Under the pieces are notes generated by a model that saw only the letters and a program-made list of their open reading frames with translations, had not been told where the DNA came from and made no database searches. Shown piece after piece: positions 26,208 to 52,747 of a DNA stretch of 64,000 nt. Location: assembly GCA_038503065.1 (NCBI GenBank), contig JBCAMK010000013.1, forward strand, positions 930,001 through 994,000. The letters run 5' to 3'. Origin of the DNA: Paragyromitra xinjiangensis (lineage: Eukaryota > Ascomycota > Pezizomycetes > Pezizales > Discinaceae). How positions within the stretch are numbered: the stretch's first letter is position 1; each line of letters opens with the position of its first letter. Both the position numbers and the translations under genes were made by a program.

Positions 26208-26525
26208 CTTGGTGGGTGATCCTGAGCGAGCGGGAGCTGGTGAGGGGTTGGAGAGGGTTCTTTTCTTGCCGATGAGGGGGAGGGTGAAGTTGGTGCCAAA
26301 GGTCACCAGCTTCACGGGAGATGGGGAGGGTGTGCGGGATCTCCTGGGAGGAGTTTGGGGTGGATCCAGGATGATTTGGGGCAGAGCGCCCGATGAAAAG
26401 TTGCGAGTGCGGGGAAGTGGTGAGAAATGAAGCCGAAGAGTTAAAGACTTTTTGCAGTGTGTAACGCCGTTGCAACGTAGAACTGGTGTTTTGCAGGGAT
26501 CTTTTTGCTCGTGCAGGATGAGGTC

Positions 26526-34288: not shown

Positions 34289-34490
34289 TTTCATGGATAG
34301 GGTCAGGCACATGTGCGGCGTTAAGGATTAGTTATTGTATTATTTCGTTGTGTTTCTTTGTGATTCGGTTGGGTTGTTTCGAATGGTTGAGTCATGAATG
34401 AGTCATAGAGAGGGGGAGATTGGGTATATAAGCGATGGATTTCCGCGGTTGTGATTGTTCTTTTCTTTCCTTCCTTAAGCAACGTTTCTT
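34289..34490 (+). mobile_element. Gyp2 5' LTR, upstream part (U3 and start of R)
   Basis: 202 bp, identical to 46507-46708. It begins TTTCATGG (possibly a changed TGTCATGG), contains a TATA box and ends in AAGCAACGTTTCTT, the target of nonLTR-C. The remaining 213 bp of this LTR follow only after C1 and C2, at 38848-39060. Confidence 0.9.
34425..34432 (+). promoter_or_regulatory. TATA box of Gyp2 5' LTR
   Basis: TATATAAG, 52 bp upstream of the motif AAGCAACGT (34477-34485) that I take as the start of the transcript because its complement follows the LTR. A transcript starting there would run directly into nonLTR-C copy C1. Confidence 0.65.
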
Positions 34491-34742
34491 CTTCTCCTCG
34501 CTACGCGAACTCCCCCATTAGGAAATAGCAACGCCAATATTTCTCCACTTTCTCACGATAGTTCTTTAACTTTGGCTTCAACGCCTACCCCGCACAACGA
34601 CACGTTGGACCTTGCTTCCCCAACGCAACTTCGTTTCGCCCAAAGGGTACTCACACAGAGCCCTCGTTCTCCTCTACCCACTATTTAATTATTGATACGG
34701 TCGGCGTCAAAACTGGCTCATCAATACACTCTCGACGAAATC

Positions 34743-36473
34743 ATGCCTCGCGGTAAGCGAGCATCATCAAGCCAGTCAGGGAGGGCGGAGACGCCTTCCC
34801 AACACCATATTCAAACCACCATTCCCTTTCACGGAACCCCCTCTCGCTCCAGCACCCCATCTGGAAGACCCTACTATCTTTCCCCACCTGCTGGGGTCAC
34901 GTCCGAAGTCAAAATCCCAGGGGCCATCATAGTCAGAAAACCCAAATTAATTGACCAACTCCTCGGCCGTTGGTTCGCAACCAACGATCCAGATTGGATT
35001 TCCGCCTGCCAGACTTGTCCTGCTAACCCAGGACACCCGGATCATAAGGGAGTTCTTTTCCCTTCCTGCCCATCCTCACCAGTTCAGGTACAGGACACAG
35101 AGATGAGTACAGGAGTCGAGGAAACTCAACTCAGCCAACTCAACCCTCTCCCCCTCCCATCCCTTTCCTTCACGCAACACTCTGGCAACATCCCATGGAG
35201 CCAGACCCCTCTCCAGGAGTCCCAGGACACCAACCTACCCCCCCGCCCGCCAGTTGACGCCGATTTTGAAACAGGTTTCAACAACAGCGTCGATTACACC
35301 GGCTGCAAAGCCTCCTTCCCTAGCCATGACCTTTGGCTCATGGCCAGTTTTCAAGCCTGGTCTTCGCACCATGCCACCTTCCCCCTTTTGAAATCCATCA
35401 AGCAATTACAAGGAGAGGTCGCTCGTCTCCATACCGAGTCTCGTGACCTTCGCTCACAAGTTCTTAAACTTGCCAGCCGACCCCCTCCTCCACCTCCACC
35501 ACCAGTTGTCCCCGCTCCTCTTGCTGCCTTGGCTACTACAGTCAACGCTCCCCCACCTCCACCAGTTAACTGGGCTGCAGTAGCTGCGGCTCCAGCCCCA
35601 GCTTCCAAACCTGCCCCCAAACCCAAGCCCGCCCCCCTCATTAAACCGGATTACACCAGGGTCAATCGTGAGCTGGTAGTTCAGGTTGAGGGCCCCATTC
35701 CCAACCCCCCAACAGACGACAGGATTAAATCGGTTGTCAACAAAGTTCTGGACAGCACCGGTGCCAGTGTCATCATGGCACGCCGTACTCCCCGTAACAA
35801 CATTATTCTCGAAACCCCGCTTGACACTCCAGCCTCCGTTGTAGATGTCTACTCCAAGGAAATTGGAGAAGCACTCCAGGAAGAAGGGATCTCGGTCACT
35901 TCAATCCACATCAATCAAGTTTGGTCTAAGTTCATCGTCCATGGCATTCCCACCTCCGTTGGCGACGGCTCCGATGCAGGCAACCTTGTGGCCTCTGAGC
36001 TCAAGGTAGCTTACCCCTTTCTCACTCTCGCACAACTCCCACGCTGGCTCTCCTCTCCCCAGTCCCGTGAAGGAAAAGCACATTCCTCCATGGTCTTATC
36101 TTTTAACGGCTCTTACAACATGTCCACCCTTGGTGTCAAAAGCTTCATCATGTTCAACAGGAACTGCAAGGTTCAGCCCTACGTCTCATTCCAACCCGAC
36201 ACTCAATGCAGGAAATGCTTCGCTTATGGTCATGCCACCACAATGTGCAAGCACGATACCGGTCGTTGCGCAGTTTGCGCAGAACCCCATCTCACTCGCA
36301 ATCACTAGTGTTCCTCTTGTAAAGGAGGTTCATCATGCATTCACCCACCCATCCGATGTGCCAACTGCCCCGGCAGACCTGGTCACAAAGCCGACGACCC
36401 AAATTGTCCATCAAGGGTCAAATACGCTATTAGCAACAAAGGTAAAGGGAAGGAAGTCACGATGGAAGTTTAG
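34743..36473 (+). pseudogene. nonLTR-C C1 ORF1 with a nonsense codon before the second knuckle end
   Basis: Gag-like ORF1. ATG at 34743 (MPRGKRASSS). Variable Pro/Ser-rich N terminus, then a conserved part: the CKASFPSHDLWLM region, a possible coiled coil (LQGEVARLHTESRDLRSQ), Pro-rich linker and central domain. The knuckles begin CRKCFAYGHATTMC and CAVCAEPHLTRNH, after which TAG (36306-36308) replaces the AAG of copy C2. The frame stays open beyond it to the family stop at 36471-36473, with the remaining knuckles readable. One substitution therefore truncates an otherwise complete ORF1. Confidence 0.88.
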
Positions 36474-36623
36474 TTTTTCCTTTCGCTTAAGTTTCAGTTA
36501 AGGTTTTATTTATGATATTTTTCCTTTATTTTTCGCTTGATATTTTTGTTTGATTTACTCATGTTGCGTGGGTTGAATAAGTAACCCGTTTATGTATTTA
36601 TCTTTTTGGCGGTTTGGTTGGCG

Positions 36624-36652
36624 CGCGATAAGCATTTAGTTGCTTCTATGCG
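36624..36652 (+). other. Conserved 3' hairpin of nonLTR-C (C1)
   Basis: CGC-GAT-AAGCA-TTTAGT-TGCTT-CTAT-GCG, a short stem-loop about 18 bases before the tail. The same structure occurs at 38794-38823 (C2) and 51798-51825 (C3). In C3 the inner stem is AAGTA/TACTT, a compensatory C-G to T-A change, which supports a real RNA structure. It is the likely recognition site for the ORF2 protein. Confidence 0.7.
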
Positions 36653-36670
36653 AAATAAAATATATTATTA

Positions 36671-36676
36671 TTTCTT
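36671..36676. repeat. TTTCTT at the C1/C2 junction
   Basis: The same hexamer flanks C1, C2 and C3 (34485-34490, 36671-36676, 38842-38847, 46703-46708, 51847-51852). It is best read as the duplicated target. C1 and C2 share one copy, so the second insertion used the duplication made by the first. Confidence 0.75.
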
Positions 36677-38841
36677 CTTCTCCTCGCTACGCGACCTTCC
36701 CCATTAGGAAATAGCAACGCCAACATTTCTCCACTTTCTCACGATAGTTCTTTAACTTTGGCTTCAACGCCTACCCCGCACAACGACACGTTGGACCTCG
36801 CTTCCCCAACGCAACTTCGTTTCGCCTAAAGGGTACCTGCACAGAGCCCTCGTTCTCGTTTTTCCTCCTGTTAGTTTTTGACTTGGTCGGCATCAAAACT
36901 GGCTGATCAAACCCCCCGCCAAAACATGCCTCGCAATAAGCGAGCCCCCTCCTCACAGTCTGGGAGGTCCCAGACCCCCAACCCCAACCAGCCCCAAGTC
37001 CAAACCACCCTCAGCTATGCCTACGGTGGTCCTCCCCAAAAACCAAGAGGAATGTTCGACACTCCTCCCCCCCCTCCCAAAATCCCGCAGCATCCACCCA
37101 GTCTCATCCCAGAGATCCCCCAGCCAGCGGGCAGATTCGTTCCCCGACCCTTGCACTGGGAGAAGCTCTTAGGACACTTCTCCGCAACCAACAACTATGA
37201 CTGGATCCAAGCGGGCATTGACTGCCCCGCTCACCCACACCACCCCGACTTTAGCGGGGTAATCTTCCCTACTTTCTCCCGTTCTAACACCCCAGCCCCC
37301 GACGACACCCAGATGGAATCAGGGGTCCCTGAAACCCTCCTCCCCCCGTCTGATCCTCTACCATGGAGCCCGACTCCACTCCTAGAGTCCCAGGACACCA
37401 GTCTTCCCCCCCGTCCCCCAGTTGACTCCGACTTTGAAGTTGGTTTCAACATCAATGTCGATTTCACAGGCTGTAAGGCCTCTTTCCCCAACCATGACCT
37501 TTGGCTTATGGCCAACTTTCAGGCCTGGTCCTCGCACCACACCACCTTCCCCCTCCTGAAAACCATCCAGCAGTTGCAAGGAGAGGTCGCTCGTCTCCAC
37601 ACGGAGTCCCGTGATCTGCGATCGCAAGTCCTTAAACTTGCCAACCGTCCTCTCCCACCTCCTCTTCCACCAGTTGTTCCCGCTCCACTTGCAGCCTTGG
37701 CGACCACAGTCAATGCTCCACCACCACCACCAGTCAACTGGGCCGCAGTAGCCTCTGCTCCAGCTCCAGTCTCCAAACCTGCTCCCAAACCCAAGCCCGC
37801 ACCCCTCATCAAACCAGACTACACCAGAGTCAATCGTGAACTGGTAGTTCAGGTTGAGGGCCCCATCCCTAACCCCCCAACAGACGACAGGATTAAATCG
37901 GTTGTCAACAAAGTCCTAGACAGCACCGGCACCAGTGTTATCATGGCACGTCGCACACCACGTAACAATATTATTCTCGAAACCCCTCTCGACACTCCAG
38001 CCTCTGCAGTAGATGTCTACTCCAGGGAAATTGGAGAAGCACTGCAGGAAGAAGGGATCTTGGTCACTTCTATCCATATCAACCAGGTTTGGTCGAAGTT
38101 CATCGTCCATGGTATCCCAACCACTGTCGGCGATGGATCCGATGCAGGCAACCTTGTGGCCTCAGAGCTCAAGGTAGCTTACCCTTTTCTTACCCTTGCA
38201 CAACTCCCACGCTGGCTTTCCTCTCCCCAGTCCCGTGAAGGAAAAGCCCATTCCTCCATGGTTCTTTCATTCAATGGCTCCTACAACATGTCCACCCTTG
38301 GTGTTAAGAGCTTTATCATGTTCAACCGGAACTGCAAAGTCCAACCTTACGTTTCATTTCAACCCGACACCCAATGCAGGAAATGTTTTGCCTTTGGTCA
38401 CGCTACCACAATGTGCAAGCACGATACCGGTCGCTGCGCTGTTTGCGCCGAACCCCACCTCACCCGCAACCACAAGTGTTCCTCTTGCAAAGGAGGTTCA
38501 TCATGTATTCACCCACCCATCCGCTGTGCCAACTGCCCTGGCAGACCTGGTCACAAAGCTGACGACCCAAATTGTCCATCAAGGGTCAAACACGCTATCG
38601 CTAATAAAGGTAAAGAGAAGGAAGTCCCGATGGAGGTTTAAGTTTTTCCTTTTTGCTTAAAGTATTGTTTAAGGTTTTTATTTTTGATATTTTTCCTTAT
38701 CTTTCGCTTGATATTTACGTTTGAATTTCTCATGTCGCGTGGGTTGAATAAGTAACCCGTTTATGTATCTATCTTTTTGGCGGATTGGTTGGCGTGCGAT
38801 AAGCATTTAGTTGCTTCTATGCGAAATAAAATATATTATTA
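36677..38841 (+). mobile_element. nonLTR-C copy C2, second ORF1-only element in tandem
   Basis: 2165 bp, head to tail with C1, same structure: full 5' leader, ORF1 complete to its own stop, about 200 bp of 3' region with the hairpin, and the TTA-repeat tail. Coding differences from C1 in the central and C-terminal regions are mostly at third positions. Together with the same ORF2-less architecture, this suggests a lineage that spreads as ORF1-only units using another copy's ORF2 protein. Confidence 0.88.
36926..38641 (+). CDS. nonLTR-C C2 ORF1, gag-like protein
   Basis: 571 residues, ATG at 36926 (MPRNKRAPSS). N terminus (about 150 residues) Pro-rich and very different from C1. The rest is nearly the same protein as C1: CKASFPNHDLWLM region, likely coiled coil, Pro-rich linker ending VNWAAVA, central domain with FIVHGIP and LPRWLSSPQSREGKAHSS, and complete C-terminal knuckles CRKCFAFGHATTMC, CAVCAEPHLTRNHKC and CANCPGRPGHKADDPNC. 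Ends PMEV, matching PMDL at the end of C3 ORF1, so the protein is full length. No ORF2 follows. Confidence 0.92.
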   Translation: MPRNKRAPSSQSGRSQTPNPNQPQVQTTLSYAYGGPPQKPRGMFDTPPPPPKIPQHPPSLIPEIPQPAGRFVPRPLHWEKLLGHFSATNNYDWIQAGIDCPAHPHHPDFSGVIFPTFSRSNTPAPDDTQMESGVPETLLPPSDPLPWSPTPLLESQDTSLPPRPPVDSDFEVGFNINVDFTGCKASFPNHDLWLMANFQAWSSHHTTFPLLKTIQQLQGEVARLHTESRDLRSQVLKLANRPLPPPLPPVVPAPLAALATTVNAPPPPPVNWAAVASAPAPVSKPAPKPKPAPLIKPDYTRVNRELVVQVEGPIPNPPTDDRIKSVVNKVLDSTGTSVIMARRTPRNNIILETPLDTPASAVDVYSREIGEALQEEGILVTSIHINQVWSKFIVHGIPTTVGDGSDAGNLVASELKVAYPFLTLAQLPRWLSSPQSREGKAHSSMVLSFNGSYNMSTLGVKSFIMFNRNCKVQPYVSFQPDTQCRKCFAFGHATTMCKHDTGRCAVCAEPHLTRNHKCSSCKGGSSCIHPPIRCANCPGRPGHKADDPNCPSRVKHAIANKGKEKEVPMEV

Positions 38842-38847
38842 TTTCTT

Positions 38848-39060
38848 ACTTTACTTCTACGGTTATAGAAATATCATCTCTGTTTCTACCTCAGAAACAT
38901 CATCGTCGCTGTCGCTGTCACCCCCCCAGAATCACCTCGATTCTTACCCTACGTGAGGCTTGGGGAAAACATTGTACTAACATTGAGCGAAGTCTCTTTC
39001 AAGTAGCACTGCTCACCTTTGGGGATACCAAAGGGCTTGACGAAACCTCGCTCCCTGAGA
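38848..39060 (+). mobile_element. Gyp2 5' LTR, downstream part (R/U5)
   Basis: 213 bp, matching 51853-52065 except at two positions. Ends CTCCCTGAGA. Its first bases ACTTTACTTC follow TTTCTT directly in the reconstructed uninterrupted LTR. Confidence 0.9.
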
Positions 39061-39071
39061 TTACGTTGCTT
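39061..39071 (+). promoter_or_regulatory. Gyp2 putative primer-binding site (self-priming)
   Basis: Two bases after the LTR, ACGTTGCTT (39063-39071) is the perfect complement of AAGCAACGT in the LTR (34477-34485 and 46695-46703). The position and two-base offset match those of Gyp1. By analogy with Tf1, the 5' end of the RNA would fold back and prime reverse transcription. Confidence 0.55.
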
Positions 39072-39530
39072 CCTCATCCACACCCCTCACCATAAGAACA
39101 CACACTCTATGGGCATCGCATCGCGGATTTACCAATCCATCCTACACCTTTTCCCTTGCACAACTGCCCGAAGAACCCCTGAACCAACGCTAGTTGTACC
39201 CGATTGGTTGGACCACAATTACCTAAGGACCAACTCAACACACTCCACCATTTCCAAAATCACCAAAGGAAATATCTTTACCATGTCGGCTGTACCTAAC
39301 CCCGCGCCCTCTGATGCCCAAACATCCGCAACGTGGGATTTCCCAACCCAAGACCGTTTCGCTGAACTGGCTGGAACGGATATCGCTAGACTTTACCAAG
39401 ATACCCGCGCCTACATCCATAGGCTTGAATTACAAATCGAAGCAAGCGATGAAGCCCGAGAACACGCGGAACAAACGCTAGGCACGACCCAAATACAGCT
39501 CACCAACGCCAACGCAACCCTCCAACAAGC

Positions 39531-39543
39531 CAATCAAACCACT
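39531..39543. repeat. 13-bp target duplication of D1, left copy
   Basis: CAATCAAACCACT, repeated perfectly at 41778-41790. Its length is typical of target-primed non-LTR insertion. Confidence 0.92.
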
Positions 39544-39576
39544 ACCGACAACAACAACCACGAAACGACTTTTTGG

Positions 39577-39884
39577 TCATAACTCCACCAGTTTTACTCC
39601 GATTAACGAGATTTTTGGTTATTCGGACTCGCCTCACTGCCCCCGTTCGATCCTGCTATTGTACGTCGAGGTCGCTCTCGATTTGCAAAAGTTGTTGTCG
39701 AATTCGCTATTTTACCCCTCTTTTCCCCCCTACACCTCAAATCTTGAGATCTTGCAAGACCTCATAACTCCACGAGTTTTCGTCCGATTAGCTCGACCCC
39801 GGGCTTTTTGGACTCCCCACACCGAGCCCGTTCGATCGCCCTCTCGTTCGTCCGGATCGGAGCAGATTTGCAGAAGTTGTTGAC
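39577..39884 (+). repeat. Two direct repeats in the D1 leader, period 185 bp
   Basis: Both begin TCATAACTCCAC (39577 and 39762), continue through CCGATTA, a TTTTTGG-type stretch and CCCGTTCGATC, and end GATTTGCA(A/G)AAGTTGTTG (about 39698 and 39884). Tandem 5' monomers in non-LTR elements often carry the promoter. I see no TATA box here. Confidence 0.7.
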
Positions 39885-39988
39885 ACTTCCTGCTCCCACC
39901 CTCCCCCACCCGCCAGGGACCCCCCCAGGGCCCCACAACAACCCCCCCATACACCCCACCTCCTCCTGTCGGTTCAGGACCCTCCTCC

Positions 39989-41473
39989 ATGTCTTCCTCT
40001 TCGTCCAGAGGCAGAGGGAGAGGCAGGGGCTTTCAGTCTCCCTCTCCTGGCGCAATTTCGCCCTTCACCACCCCCACAACACCCACAGCACCCACCACAC
40101 CCCCCAATTCACGACTTTCTGCCCTCCACCATGGAGACCCAGAGCAGACCCCTACTCAGACCCTCCCACTGCGTCCTGCTGTTGCCCTTCAGGACTATGA
40201 GTCACTCCCACTCCCTCCAGATTCTCAAGACCATGAGATGACAGAGTCAGAGTCAGAGCATGAGAGCATGGATGACTTCGTGGCTCCCACCCTCAACACC
40301 ACTATCAAGATTGCAGATGCTGTGATCCAAATTGCCAGAGACCTCCACCAGTATCGCCTCTATGTGAAGCAACTGGAGAGGGAAATCAGACGCCTCCAGA
40401 AGGCAGCCAGGAACCCCCCACCTCCCCCTACCGTTCACAATGACCCAGCTCTTGTGGAGAAGGTAGCAACCCTCACAACCAAGGTGGCAGACTTGGAGCA
40501 GAAATGCGCCTTAACTAGCATTCTGGCCACTGCCAACCTCCCCCCACCACCAGCAGCTGCCCCAGCACCTGCACCTCACTCATGGGCTCAGGTTGCCTCC
40601 AAAAAGGCCTCCAGACCCGCCCCCAAGGCCTCCAAGGCCCCCAAACCACCCACCAACCCTCCCAAGCGCGACCGCACCCTTATCATCACCAGGAATGGTC
40701 TACCCATTCCTGAGGATGTCACCCCACTCACCATTCGCAATGCAGTCAATGCAGCCTTAGAAAGCCCCTTGATTGCAGAGGTGCGATTTACACCTGCTCA
40801 CCATGTGCAGCTCATTGCTGTCACCACCACCACCTCCGACACACTCCTCAAGCAGAGATCAAAGCTTGAGGAGATTGTGAGATCCACCATCCCCAATGCC
40901 AACAGCCTGGAGAAAGAGGTCACTCTCTTTCAGGTTGTCCTGCACAACGTACCCACCTCTATTCCTTCTGGTGAAGAAGGATTTCAACACATCAGGTCAG
41001 AGGTTGAACAGTTCAACCCTGGCACCACCCTCATGCGCGACCCTCGCTGGCTCACCAGACCAGAGCAGAGAGAGGGCAAGCAGGCTTCTTCTATGGTTCT
41101 TACCATCCAGGGGAAACAACCTGCCACCACTGCCCGTGAGAGAGGGCTCTCCCTTTTCGGACGCCGCCTCAAGGTTTCCAAATACCTTCGCTTTGGACAG
41201 GACACCCAATGCACCCACTGCCTGGCCTTTGGCCACCACCAACAGCGCTGTACCAGCAAGACCCCTATCTGTACCATCTGTGCTGGGCCTCATACAGTGT
41301 CAACACACACCTGCGGCAAACCTTCCTGCCATGTCAAAGGATCTCCCTGCCTCCACACCATCCTCCGCTGCGCTAACTGTGGCGAACAACATCGTGGTAA
41401 CTCCCCTGAGTGCCTCAAACTCACAGCAGCAAGACTAGCTGCAAGCGAAAGACAGAATCGCATGCAAATCTAA
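39989..41473 (+). CDS. nonLTR-D D1 ORF1, gag-like protein
   Basis: 494 residues from ATG at 39989. Arg/Gly/Ser-rich N terminus (RGRGRGRG), Pro/Thr-rich stretch, acidic region, helix likely to form a coiled coil (IQIARDLHQYRLYVKQLEREIRRLQ), Pro/Ala/Lys-rich basic linker, a central domain related to the other ORF1 proteins (VVLHNVPTS, DPRWLTRPEQREGKQASSM) and three knuckles: CTHCLAFGHHQQRC, CTICAGPHTVSTHTC, CANCGEQHRGNSPEC. The frame is intact. It probably binds element RNA. No ORF2 follows within the element. Confidence 0.92.
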   Translation: MSSSSSRGRGRGRGFQSPSPGAISPFTTPTTPTAPTTPPNSRLSALHHGDPEQTPTQTLPLRPAVALQDYESLPLPPDSQDHEMTESESEHESMDDFVAPTLNTTIKIADAVIQIARDLHQYRLYVKQLEREIRRLQKAARNPPPPPTVHNDPALVEKVATLTTKVADLEQKCALTSILATANLPPPPAAAPAPAPHSWAQVASKKASRPAPKASKAPKPPTNPPKRDRTLIITRNGLPIPEDVTPLTIRNAVNAALESPLIAEVRFTPAHHVQLIAVTTTTSDTLLKQRSKLEEIVRSTIPNANSLEKEVTLFQVVLHNVPTSIPSGEEGFQHIRSEVEQFNPGTTLMRDPRWLTRPEQREGKQASSMVLTIQGKQPATTARERGLSLFGRRLKVSKYLRFGQDTQCTHCLAFGHHQQRCTSKTPICTICAGPHTVSTHTCGKPSCHVKGSPCLHTILRCANCGEQHRGNSPECLKLTAARLAASERQNRMQI

Positions 41474-41777
41474 GTCTCCCCCCACCCTTACGACTTCATC
41501 TCCCTTGACAGTGCTCGGATTGTTGGAGGGACGTGCTATAGGCACAAAGCATGTGCTGGTGAAAGAAGAATGCCCAGGGTAGTCTTGTCCTGTGGGAGAG
41601 GGCACTAGATCGGGGTATTAACACATAAACTGAAGAATAGCCGTAGAGGGCTGAGTTGGACCCAGTGGGAGGAATCGGGTAGTTAGTTGCGTTTTGTTTT
41701 TGTTTTCTGTTTGGTTTTCTCTATATGTATGCCATATCCGTTTCGGATTTATGCAGTATGAAATATAAATAAATAAA
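41474..41777 (+). other. D1 3' untranslated region
   Basis: Non-coding. I see no remnant of endonuclease or reverse transcriptase. Near the end lies the inverted repeat ATCCG-TTT-CGGAT with a partly paired extension, shared with D2 (ATCCG-TTA-CGGAT), then the AAAT-repeat tail. The hairpin may be the recognition site for the reverse transcriptase. Confidence 0.7.
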
Positions 41778-41790
41778 CAATCAAACCACT
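41778..41790. repeat. 13-bp target duplication of D1, right copy
   Basis: Identical to 39531-39543. Confidence 0.92.
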
Positions 41791-42806
41791 GACCGCTTAC
41801 GAAGGGAAAGAGATCAAGCTCGCTTGGGAGCACAAAGAGAGTCACGTCCTCACTCCCCAGCACCACCTCCACCCCCCCCATTGGTAAGTCAACACCGGTC
41901 AGAAAAAATGCCCGACCCAGAGAAGTTTGATGGGTCTCGCGATAAACTCCCCAGCTTTGTTCTCCAGCTCCGTTCCAAGCTATCGGTCAACAACGACCGC
42001 TTCACCAACGAGAATAATAAGATTCTCTATACCATCAATCGTTTGGAGGGGGCTGCTCTTGAACAAGTCCGTCATACTGTCCTCCCTAATGGAACAACCA
42101 CTTGGACCAACGCCGCCAAACTCATTACTGCCATGGAAACCGCCTTTGGCGACCCCGACCCAACCGGAACAGCGAGGAGGGAACTCCACCAACTGAAACA
42201 AGGAAAGAGGGAGTTCTCCGCCTACCTAGCAGATTTCCAACGCATCATGGGACACCTTCAGTATGGGGAAACCGTGAAAATGGACGCCTTGGAATATGGG
42301 ATCTCAGAGGAATTGAAGGAAGCAATGGTTGTTATAGTAGATCCTCCTACCACCTTCAACGCCTTCACTTCGCTCCTCCTTCGGTTAGATAATCGTATCA
42401 GGGCCCGCAAGGAGGAGAAGAAAAGTACCAACCGAAACAACATAGGACAATTTGTCGCCCCCGCTCCTGCTTCCTTTATCCCCCATCCTTCCCACACCCC
42501 GGGAGGGCTGGCCCCCATGGACCTTTCCTTTGGAAGAACCAGTAATATGGATCGCCCCGCACCAGATCAACGGTTCACTATGATTAACGGACGAAAAAAG
42601 CTTTCGGATCTCGAGAAACAGTGGTGTCGGTCCACTGGCAAATGTATGTTTTGCGCGGGTGAAAACCATTCCTACGCCAACTGCCCCTCAGCGCCAAAAA
42701 AACCCGCAATGAGGGGAGCCCTGGTTAATACGGCCCCCGCAGCGTCTTCTTCGTCGGGATCTGTTGATCCATTACCTTCTTTCACGGCTGCAGATATTTC
42801 CCAGTC

Positions 42807-42852
42807 TTTAAACTTGTAAAACCAGAGTTGCTATGTGACCCTGCTCTGGTTT
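42807..42852 (+). promoter_or_regulatory. Gyp2 gag-pol -1 ribosomal frameshift signal
   Basis: TTTAAAC (42807-42813) lies in the gag frame as T TTA AAC, followed by TTG and the gag stop TAA. Pol is open in the -1 frame. After a 5-nt spacer, AAACCAGAG (42819-42827) can pair perfectly over 9 bp with CTCTGGTTT (42844-42852), enclosing a 16-nt loop. Slippery site, spacing and stem are the three classical parts of a -1 frameshift signal. Whether the loop forms a pseudoknot with downstream sequence is not clear. Confidence 0.85.
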
Positions 42853-45800
42853 CTTTTTCTTCTTCTCTGTCTGTTTTTTCTATCTCGGGATTTTCGGTAT
42901 CTGATGTGTGCGTGGAGGATAAATTGGAAGGGGAACATTTTGTTATCTCTTGTAATCTTTCAAGTAACAATAAAACCATACAAACTCACGCACTATTGGA
43001 CACTGGAGCCTCAGGATTTGCATTCATGGATGAAGAATTTGCGCGTCACCATAATTTCCCCCTTATCCCCCTCAAAACTCCTCGCCAACTCGAGGTTATT
43101 GATGGTAGGCCCATTTCTTCGGGTGCCATCACTCATCTTGTACATTGCGGGCTTTCCATTCAAAATCATCAGGAAAAAGCCCCCTTCTTCGTGACACAAC
43201 TTGGTCACTATCCGCTGGTCCTAGGAATCCCTTGGATGAAGCATCATGACGTTTCCCTACAATTCGCAGCCAATAAAGTTACTTTCGGATCCGAACACTG
43301 CTGCACTCATTGCGCCCCCACCAAAATCCCGGTCACAACTCACGGCATCCAACCTCCAAAAGAACTCAAAGTCTATTTTATCGGAGCTGCAGCTTTTAGC
43401 CGGCTAGCTAAGAAACGGATATCCCAGATTTACGCCATTTCCCTGTGTGAAATCAATAAAATATTAGATAAACAAGCCACAAAGGAAGAATGGAAACAAC
43501 GGATCCCTCTGGAATACCATGAGTTCCTGGATATGTTTGATGAATCCAAAGCCAATGGACTCCCCCCACGCCGTCCTTATGATCACAAGATACCCCTTCT
43601 CGCCGGGAAAGAACCACCCTTCGGGCCTCTCTATGGGATGTCAAGAGAAGAACTCTTGGTATTAAAAGAGTATATCGAAGATAACCTTGGAAAAGGGTTT
43701 ATCCAAGCCAGCTCGTCACCAGCCGGAGCCCCAGTTCTCTTTGTGAAGAAAGCTGATGGATCCCTCCGTTTGTGCGTGGATTACCGGGGATTAAACAGTA
43801 TCACCATTAAAGATCGCTATACTTCCCCCCTCATCCGCGAAACCCTGGACCGCCTGGCCAAAGCTAAATGGTATACCAAGCTAGACCTTCGCATGGGTTA
43901 CAATCAAATACGAATGGGAGAAGGGGAAGAGTGGAAAACGGCCTTCCGTACCCGTTATGGCCTCTACGAGTACAAAGTTATGCTCTTTGGACTCACCAAT
44001 GCACCTGGCACCTTCCAACGTTTCGTTAACGATTGCCTCACTGAATACTTGGATATTTTCTGTACTGCTTACCTCGATGATATCTTAATTTACAGTGATA
44101 ACCTGGAGGAACATAAGGAACACGTTAATAAGGTACTTCAAGCTCTGAAACAGCAGGGAATTCTCCTCAAACCTGAGAAATGTGAATTTCATACCCAATC
44201 AACGAAATATTTGGGATTGATCCTCTCCCCAGATGGCATCAGCATGGATGAGGAAAAGCTAAAGGCTGTAAGAGAGTGGGGTGTACCAAAATCGGTTAAA
44301 GATGTCCAGGCTTTCTTGGGGTTTGCGAATTTTTACCGACGGTTTATATTCGGATTTTCACGACTTTCCTCCCCCCTTTCGGCATTAACAAAAAAGGACA
44401 CTCCATTTGAATGGTCCCCTAAGGCACAGCAAGCTTTCGATGCATTAAAATTCGCTTTCACTACCGCCCCAATCCTCATGCACTTCGACCCCGATAAGAA
44501 AATCTTTGTGGAAACCGACGCTTCCGATTATGTATCCGCTGGTATTCTATCTCAATATGACGATAATGGAGTTTTACACCCGGTAGCCTTCTTTTCAAAG
44601 AAACATTCCCCCACAGAATGCAACTATGAAATATACGACAAGGAACTACTAGCCATTATTCGTACATTCGAGGAATGGAGACCGGAATTGGAAGGGGCAG
44701 CACATCCCATCTCAGTTATTTCCGACCATAAGAATTTGGAATATCTCATGACCACCAAACAACTAAATCATCAACAAGCAAGATGGGCCGAGTACCTCTC
44801 ACGTTTCAATTTCGTTATCACCTATCGACCAGGAAAACAAGGGGGAAAACCGGACGCATTGACAAGGAGATCAGGAGACCTCCCTGAAGAAGGGGATGAA
44901 AGACTCGCACACCAGAGTCAAGTGGTATTAAAAAAGGAAAATCTGGATCCTAAGCTAAGTTTGTTGGCGGGTTCTTTATCAAACGAACCCGCTAAAATAG
45001 ACACCACCTTATTCTTATTATTTAAAGAAGGATATAAAGCTGACCCATTCCCGGAGAAAATCCTCACAGCATTAGAAAAAGGAGATAGACAATCAAAGGA
45101 AATCTCACTGGCCGAATGCACTAACAGCAACGGACTCCTCAAGTACCGCCAATGTTTCTTCGTCCCCGATTTCGATTCATTACGCCTTGAAATCCTGAAA
45201 CAATATCACGACACACCGGCAGCAGGGCACTCAGGACGAGAAAAAACTTTCGAGCTGGTATCCAGGGATTTCTATTGGCCAAAGATGAGGGAATATATCG
45301 GCCGCTACATCAGGAATTGCCACGTTTGTCAACGAGCAAAGCCAACAACGCAAGGCACGCAAGGAATTTTACGCCCCCTACCTATTCCAAATAGACCTTG
45401 GGAAGAATTATCAATGGATTTTGTGACAGGGTTACCGGAATCGGAAGGCTATGACGCAATAATGGTCGTTGTTGACCGATTGTCGAAAATGAGACACCTA
45501 ATTCCTTGTAACACCACTGTGAATGCTCGACAAGTGGCTGATTTGTACCTCCTGAATGTCTGGAAAATCCACGGCTTACCCTCTCATATCACTTCCGACC
45601 GTGGTACACAGTTCACCGCCAAGTTTTGGAAAGAGTTATGCCAACGGCTACAAATCAAGGCCAGGATGTCAACCTCCTTCCACCCAGAAACGGACGGACA
45701 AACCGAAAGACTCAATGCAGTAATGGAACAGTATCTCCGGTGCTATGTGTCTTATCAGCAAGAAGACTGGGTTAAGTGGTTACCAATCGCGGAGTTCGCA

Positions 45801-46471
45801 GCAAACAATCAAGAATCGGCAAGTACAAAGGTGACACCTTTCTTTGCCAACTATGGTTACCACCCTCGCTTTAACACCTTGATAATGCCGACATCCGGGA
45901 TCCACAAGCCCGTGACGCCAAAGACTTCGCCCAACACATGGAAGAACTTCGAAACTTCCTACGAACACAGATCCGGATGGCCCAAGATGTTTACGAAACA
46001 AGCACCAACAGGCATCGAACCCCAGCCCCAGCATATCGAGTTGGAGATCAAGTTTTTGTATCTACCAAAAACATACGCACTTGCCGGGCTTCAAAGAAAC
46101 TGGACTGGAAATGGATGGGCCCATACCCGGTTAAAAGAATCGTGTCACCCTACGCTTATGAGATCGACCTCCCCTTTTCAGTCAAATACCATTCCGTCTT
46201 TCACGTATCCTTGTTAAAGCCAACCGCGACAGACCCCTTACCAGGGCAGATCATTCCACCACCACCTCCGGTACAAGTCAATGATCATGAGGAATATTAT
46301 ATTGACGAAATCCTGGATTCGAGGGTACAATATGGTAACCTGGAATATTTAGTCAAATGGACGGGCTATGCTCAACCTACCTGGGAGTCGGCAAGGGATC
46401 ATCAAGAAACACAAGCTGTGGAGATTTTTCACCAACGGTATCCCGATAAACTTAATGATATGGTACCTTAG
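42814..46471 (+). pseudogene. Gyp2 pol: protease, reverse transcriptase, RNase H, integrase, chromodomain; one frameshift
   Basis: Read by -1 frameshift from gag. Protease LLDTGASG near 42995. Reverse transcriptase CVDYRGLNSITIKDRY and catalytic YLDDILIY near 44075. RNase H VETDASDYVSAGILSQY and ISDHKNLEYL. Integrase zinc domain (HDTPAAGHSG...CHVCQ) and the D,D35E core: Asp in SMDFVTG, Asp in TSDRGTQF, Glu in TDGQTERLN. A one-base deletion near 45889 shifts the frame, and the integrase C terminus and chromodomain (EEYYIDEILDSR...YLVKWTGY...TWESA) continue in the other frame to 46471. This copy therefore lacks an intact integrase tail. Everything else is open. Confidence 0.92.
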
Positions 46472-46491
46472 GTTCGCAGGAGCTCACGCTT

Positions 46492-46506
46492 GAAGGAGGG
46501 GGCTAC
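46492..46506 (+). promoter_or_regulatory. Gyp2 polypurine tract
   Basis: GAAGGAGGGGGCTAC directly precedes the 3' LTR. Purine-rich and in the position expected for the plus-strand primer. Confidence 0.75.
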
Positions 46507-46708
46507 TTTCATGGATAGGGTCAGGCACATGTGCGGCGTTAAGGATTAGTTATTGTATTATTTCGTTGTGTTTCTTTGTGATTCGGTTGGGTTGTTTCGA
46601 ATGGTTGAGTCATGAATGAGTCATAGAGAGGGGGAGATTGGGTATATAAGCGATGGATTTCCGCGGTTGTGATTGTTCTTTTCTTTCCTTCCTTAAGCAA
46701 CGTTTCTT
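46507..46708 (+). mobile_element. Gyp2 3' LTR, upstream part
   Basis: 202 bp, identical to 34289-34490, with TATATAAG at 46643-46650 and AAGCAACGT at 46695-46703, ending in the target TTTCTT (46703-46708). The LTR resumes at 51853 after C3. Confidence 0.92.
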
Positions 46709-46932
46709 CTCTCTACCTGAGCGCATACCTTCCCGATTTGGAAACCTCAACGCCAACGCAACACTCAAATCTCGCGATAAGTCTGTAACTTCGGCTTCAC
46801 CCCCAACCCCACGATACTTTTGTGTGCCTGCTTAACACAACCACGTATCGCTTCGCCCCTTGGGCTTCTTTATAGAAACCAAGCTTCCCCCTTCCACCCC
46901 ATATTCTTTGCGCACGGTCGGCTAGCCTGATC

Positions 46933-48573
46933 ATGTCGCAACTTCCCATCAACGACCCCCTTACCTGGAAGCAGACCCCTAAGCGAGGGCAGTCTTCTCA
47001 AGGCCAAAGACAAGGCTCACCCGCCCCAATCACGGGAATCCAAACCACCCTCCCATACATCCCCTCGCGACAATCCACCCCGGCGCCAGGACTAGGACCC
47101 AGCACCATCCAGGACTCACAGGACCTTGAGATGTCAGGTCAATCACACACCATGGGGGAATCGCAATATTCCCACTCCAACCCACACAACCTTCCCCCAC
47201 CCACAGACCCCCACAGTTCCGACATGAGACTAGCAACAAACGAGGACTATGACCTCCCATTTTCTCCTAATGTCGACTACACAGGAGACAGGGACAGACT
47301 CATCGCCCTAGGCATTGACTGGGCAACCTCAAACTTTACCACCTATGTGGTCAGGAACTCCAGTGCCGTCCTCTTCCAAAAGATCTCCGCCCTTGACACT
47401 CGAGTAAACGATAACATGGTCTCAACGGCCCAACTCACTTCCAGAACCCTGGGCCTAGAAAGGGCATCCAACTCTATAGCAGATAGAATCAACAGCATCG
47501 CCAACAAAACCTTCGCGAATTTTCAACCTCCCCCTCCCGCGGCTGATTCACGAGGAAGAAGCAGGAACCCCAGAAAGAACACCAACCAAGCCCCCCAACA
47601 ACCCCCACCCCAAACTACACCCCTCCCAGCACCACCAATTTCTTGGGCTGAAGCAGCAGGATCTGAGCCCTTCGAAACAGTCACTAAAAAGAAATCAAAG
47701 AAAAAGATGGAACCCCTCATCAAGCCTGACTTCACAAGAGTCAACAGAGAATTGATCCTCGAGGTCGAAGGCCCCCTCCCAGAATCACCGTCTCCGGATG
47801 ACATCAGGAAAGCCATAAACATGGTACTTGAACCCACCAGCACCTCCATCCTCCTTGCCCGCAAAACCCTAAAGAACAACATTGTATGCGAAACCCCACT
47901 GGACACTCCCGCATCAGAAGTTTTTAAATACGCACCCATTATTGAAGGAAAATTGAAGGAAATGGGTCTCAAAATCACCCTCACCAGAATCAACCAGCCT
48001 TGGGCCAAATTCATCGTTCACGGAATCCCGACCGCTATTGGAGAAGGCAGGGAAGCCGGAGAGTTCATTGCAACAGAACTCAACGTTGCCTACCCCAAGC
48101 TAGAACTAGCACAACTCCCGCGCTGGCTCCCAAAGCCGGAGAACCGACAAGGCAAAATGCACTCGTCAATGGTTTTTTCATTCAAGTGCGATGACGCAGC
48201 TAGGAACGCCAACCCCAAAACCTTCCTTGGAATCACTCACTTCAATCTCTGCAACAGACAATGTCGAATTCAGTCCTTCGTCCCGCTCAGCATTGATGAA
48301 ATTTGCACCAAGTGCTGCGGCATTGGACACAACATCAGACTCTGCAAAGCCGATACTCCAAAATGTGCAGTATGTGCAGGAGCCCATCCCTCAACGGAGC
48401 ATAAATGCGACAAGTGCAAAGGAGGAATCAGATGCACTCACCACCCAATCATGTGCGCCAACTGTCCAGGATCAGCAGGCCACAAAGCCACCGAACCAAG
48501 CTGCCCAGCCCGTGCAAAAGCCAGGCTCCAGAAAACTGAACACCGCCCCGAATCCGCCCCCATGGATCTATGA
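46933..48573 (+). CDS. nonLTR-C C3 ORF1, gag-like protein
   Basis: 546 residues from ATG at 46933. Gln/Pro/Ser-rich N terminus, helical region with possible coiled coil (about residues 145-195), Pro-rich basic linker, central domain shared with C1/C2 (DFTRVNRELILEVEGP, FIVHGIPTAIGEGREAG, LPRWLPKPENRQGKMHSS) and C-terminal knuckles CTKCCGIGHNIRLC, CAVCAGAHPSTEHKC and CANCPGSAGHKATEPSC from about residue 457. The stop overlaps the ORF2 ATG (ATGA). Role by analogy: RNA-binding particle protein. Confidence 0.93.
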   Translation: MSQLPINDPLTWKQTPKRGQSSQGQRQGSPAPITGIQTTLPYIPSRQSTPAPGLGPSTIQDSQDLEMSGQSHTMGESQYSHSNPHNLPPPTDPHSSDMRLATNEDYDLPFSPNVDYTGDRDRLIALGIDWATSNFTTYVVRNSSAVLFQKISALDTRVNDNMVSTAQLTSRTLGLERASNSIADRINSIANKTFANFQPPPPAADSRGRSRNPRKNTNQAPQQPPPQTTPLPAPPISWAEAAGSEPFETVTKKKSKKKMEPLIKPDFTRVNRELILEVEGPLPESPSPDDIRKAINMVLEPTSTSILLARKTLKNNIVCETPLDTPASEVFKYAPIIEGKLKEMGLKITLTRINQPWAKFIVHGIPTAIGEGREAGEFIATELNVAYPKLELAQLPRWLPKPENRQGKMHSSMVFSFKCDDAARNANPKTFLGITHFNLCNRQCRIQSFVPLSIDEICTKCCGIGHNIRLCKADTPKCAVCAGAHPSTEHKCDKCKGGIRCTHHPIMCANCPGSAGHKATEPSCPARAKARLQKTEHRPESAPMDL

Positions 48574-51500
48574 ATCCACAACCAAAAGACACCTTCCTGG
48601 TGCGTTTATTGAATTGCGCCAGAAACGAAGCCACGACCAGGTCATTTGTGGAGGATTGTGAAATGGATGTAAATGTTTCTTTTGTTATTTTACAAGAATT
48701 ATGGACGGATAGTGCTGGAAAATTTCCTTATTTGTTAAATTTTGATTATTTTTCCCCTTCTTTATTTCCACGTTGCGTGATTTTAGCCAGGAAAGGCGTG
48801 TCTTACCTGCCTAAAGTTATTTTTTCCTTACAAGATTATGCTATTGGAATCAGATTCGGTATGGGAGGAAATTTCTTTAATCTTATTTCCTTTTATTCCC
48901 CGGGACGACCCCTAGAATTAGCCAACAACCTCAATCATCTACCCGCCGACAAAAATACCCTCCTGCTGGGTGACTTCAACTGTCACTCCCCTCTCTGGTA
49001 CGGAAAGCTGAGCTCAGATTATTCGGAGAACATCAAGAACAACATTCGCTCAGCCAACAAAATCACCGATTATGTCGAAGAGCAAGGATTCACATTACTC
49101 AAACCGCCTGCCACTTTCACTCACTTCCCCAAAAATCATACCCGACCCACCATTATCGACCTCTCCTTTGCGAAGGGAAGATGGCTGAGACACTTCCAGA
49201 CATGGTCCATCCTTCCAGATGGATATGCATCAGATCATGGAGCAATCACCCTCAGCTTCGACTTTCAACCCCCCGCAGCGGTTCCCATCAGAGATTGGAA
49301 AAGGACCAACTGGTCAGTCGTCCATGAAATCTTTAACCAAGTGCCCTCGCTGGAATGGGACACGGAAGAAAATACCGCACTCAGCGCATCGTATGTAATT
49401 TCTCTGGTTCACAATGCCATGGACGCTGCCACCCCATGGAGGTACCCCCACCAAAAATCCAAGCCCTGGTGGTCGCAGGATCTAGGCAGACAAAGAAAGG
49501 AACTCAAGCATCACGAAAGGTATACCAAAAACCACCCGACAGAAGACAATCAACGTCGCCTGAAAACCCTTTCTAGGAAATGGGTGCGAAATGTCAGGAA
49601 AGCCAAGGCAACTTTCGACGAAAGATCATTGGAAACCACGCCTAAGGACCTACTCTGGAAAACAATCTTTCCAAAATGCAAAGGAAAAGGCATCCCCACC
49701 CTAAATGGGGCTGATCACTTTGAGGAAAAAGCCACGCTTTTGCAGGAACAGTTCTTCCCTTCGCGAAGAAAGGAGCCTCCCCCCTTGGAAATTACTTCCC
49801 TCCCCACGCCCACCATGGACCTCAGGAACTCCTTTGATGAAGTCAGTGAAGACGAAATCATCAAGGCCTTCCAATCATGCTCTGCCAACAAAGCCACTGG
49901 ACATGATCTCATCCGATACCCGATGCTTCTTTCAGCCTTTAATGCTAACCGCTTACTTTTCACCGACATGTTTACCGGTCTCCTCAAAAATGGTGTACAC
50001 CCTAAAGAGTGGAAACATGCCCTCTGCGTCCCAGTTCCGAAACAAAACAAACCTGACTACTCCCTGCCCAAGGCCTACCGACCAATCAGCTTGCTCTCAT
50101 GTTTTGACAAGCTATTAGGAAAAATAGTAGCCAAAAGGCTTGCTAACTACGGCAAGCTCAACGGAGCCCTTTCAGCAAACCAGTTCGGAGCACGGGAGGG
50201 AATCAGTTCAGTGGATGCTCTACTGCGTACCCTCACCCCAGCAAATACCTGGCTTTCGGTAAAAAAATCTACCGGACAAAACCCCCTACGACCGGCTCTC
50301 TTCACCAGTGATGTCAGAGGAGCCTTCGATTCGGTCATCCATCAGTACGCTCCAATCATTATGGAAAGATTAGCCTTCCCCACTTATATCACAAAGTGGA
50401 TCCAAAACTTCCTTCAAAACCGAACCATTAGTCTACAATTCGATCGCAGAACAGGCAGTCCATTCCCCTTTTTCATAGGTACTCCGCAAGGTTCACCTAT
50501 TTCCCCAGTTCTATATATGATATACGCGGGCACTATTGTCCCAAAACCTAATCCAAAAATACCAACCGAAATCGATACCATTTATGTGGACGACGATGCC
50601 ATGCTACAAGGAGCTCAACAAGAAACATACACAGTCGGCCGGTTACAACGAAGACTCAGGGACAGATCAGAAAAAGCCTCTATAATTGGTATAGAGTTTG
50701 AGTACGAGAAATCCGAACTCCTCGTTATGAAACCATCCTCCTCGCACTTCCAGTCGAAAATCAAGTCAGTTCGCTTCGGAACATCAGAAATTCCCCCTTC
50801 TCCCCTTCTGAAATACGTTGGAGTCTACCTGGACGAAAGGCTGTCCTTCCGCCCTCATCTGGACCACAAACTCAGCAAATGTGCCAAAATTCTCGGCAGA
50901 ATCCGCAGCCTATGGTACAAGTTCAATCATCGATCATTGCACCACACGATGACGCAGCTAGTACTGCCAGTTCTCCTTTTCGGATCAGAAGCTTGGTGGA
51001 ACGGTTCACCTTACCTCCTGGACGCTATCCATTCAACTTACATGCGCATGGCCAGAACCATTACCCGACTTCCCCCCTGGACCAACACCACCTCGCTTCT
51101 TAAAGAGGCAGGCCTGCCGCCCCTAAAATTGCTCCTGGATTATTACTCAAGGAAGTATGGTTCCAGGATCATTTGCTCTCCCCAAGATCACCCGTGCCGC
51201 ACCATCCTTGTCAATCATCCCGTTCTTCCGCCGACCAGACAGCATTGCGGTCTAGGGAGAATAAAACAGTTACTTCTTGACTTTCAGGTTGAAGGAAACA
51301 GACGTGATTACTTCAACCAACTGTCGCTACTACAGCAACACCTACTGAAAGAATGGGCATCTTCCGTCACCCGCGCCGATCACCCCTTAAAAATACAGTG
51401 GGACCTTCCCAAGTCTACCAAAAAACTCACCCGTTCGCAAGCACACCGCATAGCCGTTATCCGATGTCAAGTATCCAACTTGGATCGATTCCCAGGCCAA

Positions 51501-51704
51501 CCACCCCCGATTTGCGATTGTGGAATGGAGCGTTCCTCGAATCACCTATTCATGATCTGCGGCCGATGGTCGTCTTTACGACAAAAATTGATTGATAAGA
51601 TTGAAGGACCTCCCAGCTGGGAAAACTGGTTCTTTTCAGATCGTTTAAATATTTTCTTGTTACTTGATTTCGCTAAACAAGTTGGTTATCGTTTTATGTT
51701 TTGA
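48570..51704 (+). CDS. nonLTR-C C3 ORF2: endonuclease and reverse transcriptase, no RNase H
   Basis: 1044 residues. Endonuclease in about residues 1-230 with QELW, LLGDFNCHSPLW and ASDHGAI. Reverse transcriptase in about 430-720 with KATGHDLIRYP, AYRPISLLSCFDKLLGK, SDVRGAFDS, GTPQGSPIS and catalytic YVDDD. After the thumb region there is no RNase H: the expected YSDGS, DNQ and ADxxAK motifs are absent and the protein is about 200 residues shorter than family A ORF2. It ends in a CCHC-like cluster (CDCGMERSSNHLFMIC). It starts by ATGA overlap with ORF1. The endonuclease is the candidate for the LTR target specificity. Confidence 0.94.
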   Translation: MNPQPKDTFLVRLLNCARNEATTRSFVEDCEMDVNVSFVILQELWTDSAGKFPYLLNFDYFSPSLFPRCVILARKGVSYLPKVIFSLQDYAIGIRFGMGGNFFNLISFYSPGRPLELANNLNHLPADKNTLLLGDFNCHSPLWYGKLSSDYSENIKNNIRSANKITDYVEEQGFTLLKPPATFTHFPKNHTRPTIIDLSFAKGRWLRHFQTWSILPDGYASDHGAITLSFDFQPPAAVPIRDWKRTNWSVVHEIFNQVPSLEWDTEENTALSASYVISLVHNAMDAATPWRYPHQKSKPWWSQDLGRQRKELKHHERYTKNHPTEDNQRRLKTLSRKWVRNVRKAKATFDERSLETTPKDLLWKTIFPKCKGKGIPTLNGADHFEEKATLLQEQFFPSRRKEPPPLEITSLPTPTMDLRNSFDEVSEDEIIKAFQSCSANKATGHDLIRYPMLLSAFNANRLLFTDMFTGLLKNGVHPKEWKHALCVPVPKQNKPDYSLPKAYRPISLLSCFDKLLGKIVAKRLANYGKLNGALSANQFGAREGISSVDALLRTLTPANTWLSVKKSTGQNPLRPALFTSDVRGAFDSVIHQYAPIIMERLAFPTYITKWIQNFLQNRTISLQFDRRTGSPFPFFIGTPQGSPISPVLYMIYAGTIVPKPNPKIPTEIDTIYVDDDAMLQGAQQETYTVGRLQRRLRDRSEKASIIGIEFEYEKSELLVMKPSSSHFQSKIKSVRFGTSEIPPSPLLKYVGVYLDERLSFRPHLDHKLSKCAKILGRIRSLWYKFNHRSLHHTMTQLVLPVLLFGSEAWWNGSPYLLDAIHSTYMRMARTITRLPPWTNTTSLLKEAGLPPLKLLLDYYSRKYGSRIICSPQDHPCRTILVNHPVLPPTRQHCGLGRIKQLLLDFQVEGNRRDYFNQLSLLQQHLLKEWASSVTRADHPLKIQWDLPKSTKKLTRSQAHRIAVIRCQVSNLDRFPGQPPPICDCGMERSSNHLFMICGRWSSLRQKLIDKIEGPPSWENWFFSDRLNIFLLLDFAKQVGYRFMF

Positions 51705-51852
51705 TGATTGTGATTTCCTATTTGTTTTGTTATATTATTTGGTTTTTTGTTTGAGATTTTGTTTGTTTGTTTGTTTTTGGTGGTTTGGGTTTGGTGCGCG
51801 ATAAGTATTTAGTTACTTCTATGCGAAATAAAATTTATTATTATTATTTCTT

Positions 51853-52065
51853 ACTTTACTTCTACGGTTATAGAAATATCATCTCTGTTTCTACCTCAGA
51901 AACATCATCGTCGCTGTCGCTGTCACCCCCCCAGAATCACCTCGATTCTTACCCTACGTGAGGCTTGTGGAAAACATTGTACTATCATTGAGCGAAGTCT
52001 CTTTCAAGTAGCACTGCTCACCTTTGGGGATACCAAAGGGCTTGACGAAACCTCGCTCCCTGAGA
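51853..52065 (+). mobile_element. Gyp2 3' LTR, downstream part
   Basis: 213 bp, two differences from 38848-39060. Ends CTCCCTGAGA, followed by the CATGG target duplication (52066-52070). Confidence 0.92.
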
Positions 52066-52747
52066 CATGGTCAGAATTGTGTTGGTTGTGTGCTATGGTG
52101 GCCCATTGGCCTAGATGAGCATCAAGACCTCTTGTGAAAGTGAGATCAATGGCTGTGGGGGAGGAACCATTTCTGGGAAAGTGCGTCAGGGTGCCTGGTT
52201 TGTTGAGGAGGGTGAAGTGACTATCTTCGAGGTAGTCAATTAACTTTTGGGTGATACTACCATATTTTGAAAAGAGGTGTTGGTGGGCTTCAGAATCAGG
52301 TCCATACCACCAAGGGTGGTGAAGGTTGAAATCGCCAGTGAGGAGAGTGTTTTGATGAAAATGATGGGTGAAGATGGGATCATGAAGGTTTTTCGTGGGC
52401 TGTAGGTAAAGGTTGCAAAGGTCCATTGTGGTGAGGCTGAGGGTGCAACGGATGGTGATGAGGTTTGGGTTCGGTTGCAGGGTTACTGAAGTTTTGATGC
52501 CTCGATTTTTGTGAACGTAGGTTACTACTTTGGGGGGTAGATTTGCATGTATTGGAAAGAAGACATCAAATTGACGGGCAAGCGGGGGAAGATTGTTGTG
52601 GTCAAGCCAGGGTTCTTGCAATAAAAGAAAAATAACTGAGGAACTATTATCTGCATCGATGATTGCTGAGAGAGTGGAGGCCTGCCCTTTGGCACAGTTC
52701 AGCTGCTGTACCAGGGTGTTGCCGTTTATGTTCGGTTGTGTAATCAT
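52066..52747 (-). pseudogene. nonLTR-B B1 ORF2, N-terminal segment (endonuclease)
   Basis: Starts with ATG overlapping the ORF1 stop (TAATG at 52747). Contains QLNCAKGQAS, QEPWLDHN, TGDFNLHHPWW and the start of the SDH motif, where Gyp2 interrupts it. The protein is clearly related to family A ORF2 but diverged throughout, so B is a separate family. It continues at 34283. Confidence 0.92.

Follow-up and report, generated by a model that had tools for sequence, protein, structure and literature searches.

The window analysed here is a 64,000-nucleotide stretch of the genome of Paragyromitra xinjiangensis (contig JBCAMK010000013.1, C13:930001-994000 in our numbering). Its central feature is Gyp2, a Ty3/gypsy element (34289 to about 52065) whose two long terminal repeats (LTRs) are both interrupted by long interspersed nuclear elements (LINEs) of one family, here called C. 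A number before a colon, as in C13, denotes a contig, while C1, C2 and C3 standing alone are individual elements. The Gyp2 and C features are all on the plus strand. Each Gyp2 LTR is 202 + 213 = 415 bp long. LTR comparison places the pre-insertion part of the left LTR, which ends AAGCAACGTTTCTT, at 34289-34490 and the remaining part at 38848-39060; the corresponding parts of the right LTR are at 46507-46708 and 51853-52065. Left and right LTR match at all 204 positions compared in the first part and are 99% identical in the second. This agrees with the first-pass annotation, an earlier reading of the same DNA, which had described two 415-bp LTRs with two differences. The gag and pol open reading frames (ORFs) of Gyp2, with gag, protease, reverse transcriptase (RT), RNase H and integrase domains, lie at 41773-46217.

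Both LTRs are interrupted after AAGCAACGTTTCTT, the 6 bp TTTCTT being duplicated, and the inserts differ. The left LTR holds two ORF1-only LINEs in tandem. C1 (2.18 kb, 34491-36670) follows a TTTCTT copy at 34485-34490, a second copy (36671-36676) separates it from C2 (36677-38841), and a third (38842-38847) stands behind C2. The two elements are about 88% identical where aligned. The ORF1 of C1 (34743-36305, 521 amino acids) stops earlier than that of C2 (36926-38638, 571 amino acids) and contains, by eye, knuckle-like Cys motifs. The right LTR holds C3 (5.14 kb, 46709-51846), a full-length LINE from a diverged subfamily, with a TTTCTT copy behind it at 51847-51852. C3 has an ORF1 of 546 amino acids (46933-48570) and an open ORF2 of 1044 amino acids (48570-51704); the ORF1 stop and the ORF2 start overlap in ATGA (48570-48573). 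An apurinic/apyrimidinic endonuclease (APE)-type domain (Exo_endo_phos_2, 7.5e-13) and an RT domain (RVT_1, 2.6e-22) are encoded in this one ORF2, and C3 has no LTRs of its own. The first-pass annotation had both LTRs cut at the same nucleotide between TTTCTT flanks, with C1 and C2, ORF1-only, on the left and C3, full length, on the right, and the ORFs and junctions read here bear this out.

In database searches C3 ORF2 had a best-scoring relative of 27% identity, and a PDB search with this ORF returned L1, R2 and other RTs; close homologues gave no clade name. No Pfam match was found for the ORF1 of C1, C2 or C3. A search for a 5′ self-cleaving R2-type ribozyme returned no Rfam family at the gathering score in the window or at two further loci (L078 and L129).

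C elements across the genome

Genome-wide searches covered 48.2 Mb on 22 contigs. The 5′ end of C1 matched 24 places and that of C3 matched 10, eight of them closely (83-100%) and two belonging to a sister family, D; the upstream flank was read for all 34. Every one of the 32 close copies begins at the same nucleotide. Twenty lie behind the AAGCAACGTTTCTT of a Gyp2-type LTR, or a variant of it with 1-2 base changes, and 12 are in tandem, beginning exactly where a preceding C-type element ends. A search with the C 3′ end gave 43 candidates, of which 40 were scored: 24 continue into LTR sequence and 16 into a further C-type element, at its 5′ end. When the flanks of close C copies are tabulated, none of the 32 5′ ends and none of the 40 3′ ends among the matches listed lies away from the LTR site or from an array built on it. 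The first-pass annotation, which proposed that these LINEs use an LTR as their home, had named C copies with unrelated flanks as the result that would refute it, and no such copy was seen. Four C copies that look shortened or interrupted (L175-L178) were left out of the count; three of these have internal C sequence and one (L176) another repeat. The array orders seen are C1 then C3, a short element then C3, and C1 then a short element, and tail lengths vary. Among 15 filled-LTR loci, the outer flank is distinct by eye in 10, and in three it is the edge of a 3′ LTR against the gypsy interior. In the other two, the LTR start was not recognised by the script (L024) or the locus begins within the LTR (L075).

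The site can also be found empty. A search pattern, AAGCAACGTYTCTTHHHH, occurs at 90 places in the genome and its reversed control at none. The pattern bars G (by the code H) at its last four places, which loses none of the 62 exact AAGCAACGTTTCTT sites, a check that applies to these and not to TCTCTT sites. Of the 90 sites, 66 are empty (continuing ACTT or ACCT) and 24 are filled (continuing CTTC or CTCT), and insert letters were confirmed at all 24. Empty LTRs elsewhere read AAGCAACGTTTCTTACTTTACTTC without interruption, and the TTTCTT boundaries given in the first-pass annotation are therefore correct.

Occupancy differs between site variants. By a table transcribed by hand from the pattern list, 23/62 TTTCTT sites are filled and 1/28 TCTCTT sites (Fisher p = 0.0006). 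We read this as a fine sequence preference, with LTR subfamily and age as uncontrolled confounders. The TCTCTT LTRs are empty at 27/28 sites, as if this lineage had escaped the LINE. TCTCTT sites can be used, since one more of them, at C2:2842962 and with another change, is filled. It has TCTCTT on both sides (3′ end at C2:2840789); the repeat therefore copies the target and is a true target duplication. The duplication follows the target variant in this way with one counter-case, given below.

Passengers and the 3′ stem-loop

An ORF2 match lies downstream of all eight C3-type 5′ ends; in one case, on contig C8, it is 6 kb away, with an insertion of another element, F, between. Among the best 44 of 660 ORF2 matches, none could be assigned to the 24 C1-type copies. 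A third C type is 1.25 kb long and without an ORF, the longest open stretch being 113 amino acids in the two copies read. It has the insertion site of the LINE and, with the stem-loop, its 3′ end, and is in these respects like a short interspersed nuclear element (SINE). Loci with this passenger include L075 (C12:809992-813375) and, on contig C2, L050 and L024.

The 3′ stem-loop is conserved in the C and D families and lies, in C3, at 51795-51825, before the (ATT)n tail. Across 18 C and D sequences, 98.9% of cells are paired and both-side changes are present in 4/10 pairs. The covariation score was matched by 0/500 shuffles; the sequences were selected by motif and by eye, a selection that leans toward structure. 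We infer that the stem-loop is recognised by the RT.

Related families at other sites

At least five related families, C, D, E1, E2 and E3, each occupy an exact site of their own in LTR retrotransposons. The first-pass annotation, which dealt with C, underestimated the phenomenon: at least four further related families are tied to sites, and tandem re-use of the site mixes elements.

The ORF2 of D is 51-52% identical to that of C3 at the amino acid level. Its host is LTR-D, distinct from the Gyp2 type, which begins TGTAACGG and ends CCGTTACA. Four of the five D 5′ ends lie behind GCGATAGTTGAGCC in LTR-D and one is in tandem; all five 3′ ends continue into LTR-D, via TTGAGCC (four) or TTAAGCC (one). 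The empty D site in LTR-D, at L181, reads GCGATAATTGAGCCCTTAAG.

E1, E2 and E3 are about 32-37% identical in amino acids to C3 ORF2 where aligned well. Of 28 E-type matches, 20 regions were read, and 17 have an E-type 5′ end (8 E1, 8 E2 and 1 E3); L133, L134 and L143 contain other inserts. Further copies come from the best 40 of 163 matches in the E2 search and the best 40 of 170 in the E3 search. All 25 listed E2 copies of at least 96% identity begin behind TACACATGC or a near variant, 17 in LTR-D and eight in tandem. The E2 site is in the upstream part (U3) of LTR-D, and LTR-D resumes past the 3′ copy in L186, the one copy followed through.

The 24 E1 copies read are nine in a gypsy integrase gene and 15 in tandem, a count that leaves out further E1 cross-matches among the E3-search list. 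The first member of the E1 array in the window (621-26518, minus strand) is among the nine. This array has a 5.73-kb period, an ORF1 of 593 amino acids and an ORF2 of about 1245, and starts in the integrase gene of the gypsy element Gyp1. The target there, CTGGACCTCA (26519-26528, minus strand), is just past codons read by eye as YRP (YRPW). Integrase sequence resumes past the 3′ copy of E1 in the one copy followed (L183).

Of 30 listed E3 matches of at least 90% identity, 22 were read as clear junctions (including L139 and the window copy) and one more, L210, where a copy of F lies ~13 bp upstream, was left out of the count; the other seven fall outside the sample. All 22 clear reads agree, with eight antisense in a gypsy chromodomain-like gene and 14 in tandem. 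The frame of the target gene reads VLWEGYDQEEATWEP, and the chromodomain was named by eye. In the window, the 5′ part of an E3 LINE is at 52066-54474 (minus strand), with a further part at 32226-34288 beyond the Gyp2 insertion. Upstream of it is the 3′ part of another E3 copy (54490-56967, minus strand), with the next E3 copy in tandem after it.

The target duplications are 6 bp in C, 7 in D and about 10 in E1 and E2. The tails, (ATT)n, (AATTG)-like, (AAATTGG)n and (AAATA)n, have a few bases in common with the start of the duplicated target.

Ancestry

I/Tad1-type fungal LINEs carry an APE endonuclease, an RT and a C-terminal RNase H. The E1 match to RNase H is below threshold (22.9 bits, cut-off 25.8), and C3 has none at E 0.01. 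In a quick, midpoint-drawn RT tree of 54 rows, with no labelled clade references and with the E2 row flagged for its letter make-up, C groups with D (Shimodaira-Hasegawa-like approximate likelihood ratio test, SH-aLRT, 100), and E1 groups with E3 (window 32225-33670) and E2 (99). Both groups are within one 30-row clade (SH-aLRT 100) that includes Morchella proteins; of all named sequences in the tree, three of these (P0099, P0108 and P0111) stand closest to C and D (94). The named closest kin of E1 ORF2 are likewise fungal (Morchella, Sclerotinia). By this tree, the reverse transcriptases of C, D, E1, E2 and E3 are of common ancestry.

Interpretation and alternatives

We are highly confident in reading C as a target-specific non-LTR retrotransposon with its home at one nucleotide of Ty3/gypsy LTRs; entry would be by target-primed reverse transcription, and the site is used again. 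The exact sites, the target duplications, the tandem re-use, the empty sites and the covarying stem-loop all enter into this reading. It is very unlikely that the pattern goes back to a single insertion, multiplied as filled LTRs retrotransposed, underwent gene conversion or were segmentally duplicated. In favour of this, the filled LTRs are all related, a few source loci are conceivable with 66/90 sites empty, and 8/9 E1 copies in the integrase gene have almost the same flanks. However, three insert types occupy one site, array orders are mixed, tail lengths differ, the outer flanks are distinct by eye in 10/15 filled-LTR loci, and the site variant is duplicated at both ends of the insert. 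One copied insertion is insufficient because element types mix at the site and outer flanks differ. The first-pass annotation had discounted a single copied insertion from the differing inserts of the two Gyp2 LTRs, and the mixed arrays and differing flanks elsewhere support that argument.

LINEs without any site preference could also land in clusters rich in transposable elements, perhaps centromere-like, and in T-rich tracts, as poplar Celine does. Celine is centromere-rich and often (in P. simonii about 65%) inserted into LTR retrotransposons, with a unique duplication for each copy and no fixed site (PMC11288735). The C copies do share with Celine a location in LTR retrotransposons, they cluster in few regions per contig, and the tails of the families have short words in common with their targets. 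Yet every copy read is at the same nucleotide, which leaves this explanation exceedingly improbable. The element F provides a control in the same kind of DNA. F is a gag-only element (about 39544-41778) inside the Gyp2 gag, with a 12-bp duplication, AATCAAACCACT. A genome-wide search gave 198 first-look candidates for F; twelve copies were read, drawn from 41 matches or from loci already sampled, and no common insertion site was found among these 12. The 3′ flanks of the window copy, L077, L134 and 8/9 further copies are mutually different; the ninth read is all tail. Clustering and nesting alone thus do not yield fixed sites like those of C. The LINE might instead be resident cargo of a compound LTR element, since insert and LTR have the same sense, but the empty sites, the different inserts in the two LTRs of one Gyp2 and the presence of inserts in tandem all oppose this. 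So do pairs of LTRs, 5.6 kb apart, in which neither holds an insert, e.g., C4:1416970 and C4:1422603, and we give cargo hardly any credence.

Several points weigh against a fixed home site for C and its relatives, or limit how far it reaches. Two of the 24 LTR-side 3′ ends (C18:969894 and C16:831613) depart from LTR-like sequence after about 17-30 bases. At C2:2836828, the only filled TCTCTT site of the 90, the paired 3′ end (C2:2839729) is followed by TTTCTT; one target copy may have changed since, or the 3′ pairing may be wrong. For E1, the flanks of 8/9 integrase insertions belong to a single gypsy family and hardly differ, which leaves uncertain how many separate E1 events they represent. 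Behind one F copy (L214) stands sequence resembling the F start, perhaps a tandem copy, and F may therefore not be wholly preference-free. Because long lists were scored as the best of many (for LTR candidates, the best 40 of 102), copies off the site could remain among the unscored rows. Finally, the evidence is from one genome only, and the home-site reading for C draws on junction sequences.

Proposed mechanism

The APE-type endonuclease of C would nick the LTR at AAGCAACG/TTTCTT, as the junctions suggest, and is our candidate for the cutter of the LTR site. The nicked strand would then prime reverse transcription of the C RNA at the (ATT)n tail behind the 3′ stem-loop. Pairing of the tail with the nicked strand would explain the few bases common to tails and target start. 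A second nick a few bases off, followed by repair of the staggered cut, would leave a 6-bp TTTCTT copy on each side. As the site is rebuilt by the duplication, it would be usable again, giving head-to-tail arrays. These arrays would mix autonomous C3, ORF1-only C1 and C2 and the ORF-less 1.25-kb passenger, all with a common 3′ end.

The position of the inserts points to a possible role for the LTR promoter. The distance from the first base of a TATA-like box, TATATAAG, to the start of the insert is 62-67 bp in 21 filled Gyp2-type LTRs. In four LTR-D copies with D, it is 57-58 bp, measured from the first base of another such box, TTAAATAC. With C and D inserted in sense at about 57-67 bp past the first base of a TATA-like box, the insert would fall within the transcribed region, and the LTR promoter would be expected to transcribe it. 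Such borrowing of a promoter is not applicable to E1, E2 and E3. A wider reading, which we hold only tentatively and at somewhat less than even chances, is that of a LINE lineage specialised on LTR retrotransposons, with at least four target switches among LTR and pol sites. In two LTR families insertion would be just past the transcription start, with the LTR promoter driving the parasite, and the TCTCTT lineage would have largely escaped in an arms race of one retrotransposon class with another.

Relation to known target-specific LINEs

R1/Tx1-type LINEs have an exact site and a constant target duplication, and related families among them use several sites. C resembles the R1 and Tx1 clades and the telomeric TRAS and SART in its APE endonuclease and RT, a likeness of architecture. 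Tx1L of the frog has an exact site in the DNA transposon Tx1D. A transposon as the site is common to both systems, but here LTR retrotransposons are used, by at least five families at as many sites. HeT-A, with TART, at Drosophila telomeres is a case of gag-only elements amplified beside RT-bearing kin in head-to-tail arrays; there the arrays are at telomere ends, and here they are at a duplicated site inside an LTR.

The targets of LINEs named in two papers are rRNA, tRNA, snRNA and spliced-leader genes, telomeres, microsatellites and "transposons" (PMC4640811; PMC5035012), whereas the targets here are gypsy LTRs and pol or chromodomain codons. MoTeR, Cnl1 and FoTeR are fungal telomere LINEs described as having a restriction-like endonuclease (PMC12857005). 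They share with C a fungal host and target specificity, but C3 is APE-type. The APE domain of C3 rules out C as a CRE-type telomere LINE of this kind. Target-specific LINEs, those with transposon targets included, are known, but a LINE fixed to a site in an LTR or in pol codons was not found described in the open-licence PubMed Central literature, as far as its text was available; Repbase Reports are outside this scope.

An LTR retrotransposon can, on this evidence, act as the "rDNA" (ribosomal DNA) of a LINE, that is, a multicopy, conserved, self-renewing and self-moving target. This would be a two-level system of parasites, to which the ORF1-only and ORF-less passengers add a third level. 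Related enzymes that apparently use five different sites would be useful for learning how APE endonucleases choose sequence. Repeated insertion into one site would also be a simple way for mixed LINE arrays to arise in fungal DNA that is repeat-rich and possibly centromeric.

Other features

The elements cluster in limited stretches of several contigs (e.g., C2:2.80-3.08 Mb, C16:0.63-0.86 Mb and C13:0.85-1.0 Mb), which are possibly centromeres. Within the window, the E1 array is cut at its left by an LTR-D insertion. At the D site of this LTR-D copy (about 30-620) a D-like insert begins (window 1-29, minus strand) and runs off the window. The tandem E3 copies (52066-56967 and 32226-34288, minus strand) are split by Gyp1 and Gyp2. 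Another LINE RT match, 28% identical to C3 ORF2, lies at 62395-63951 on the plus strand.

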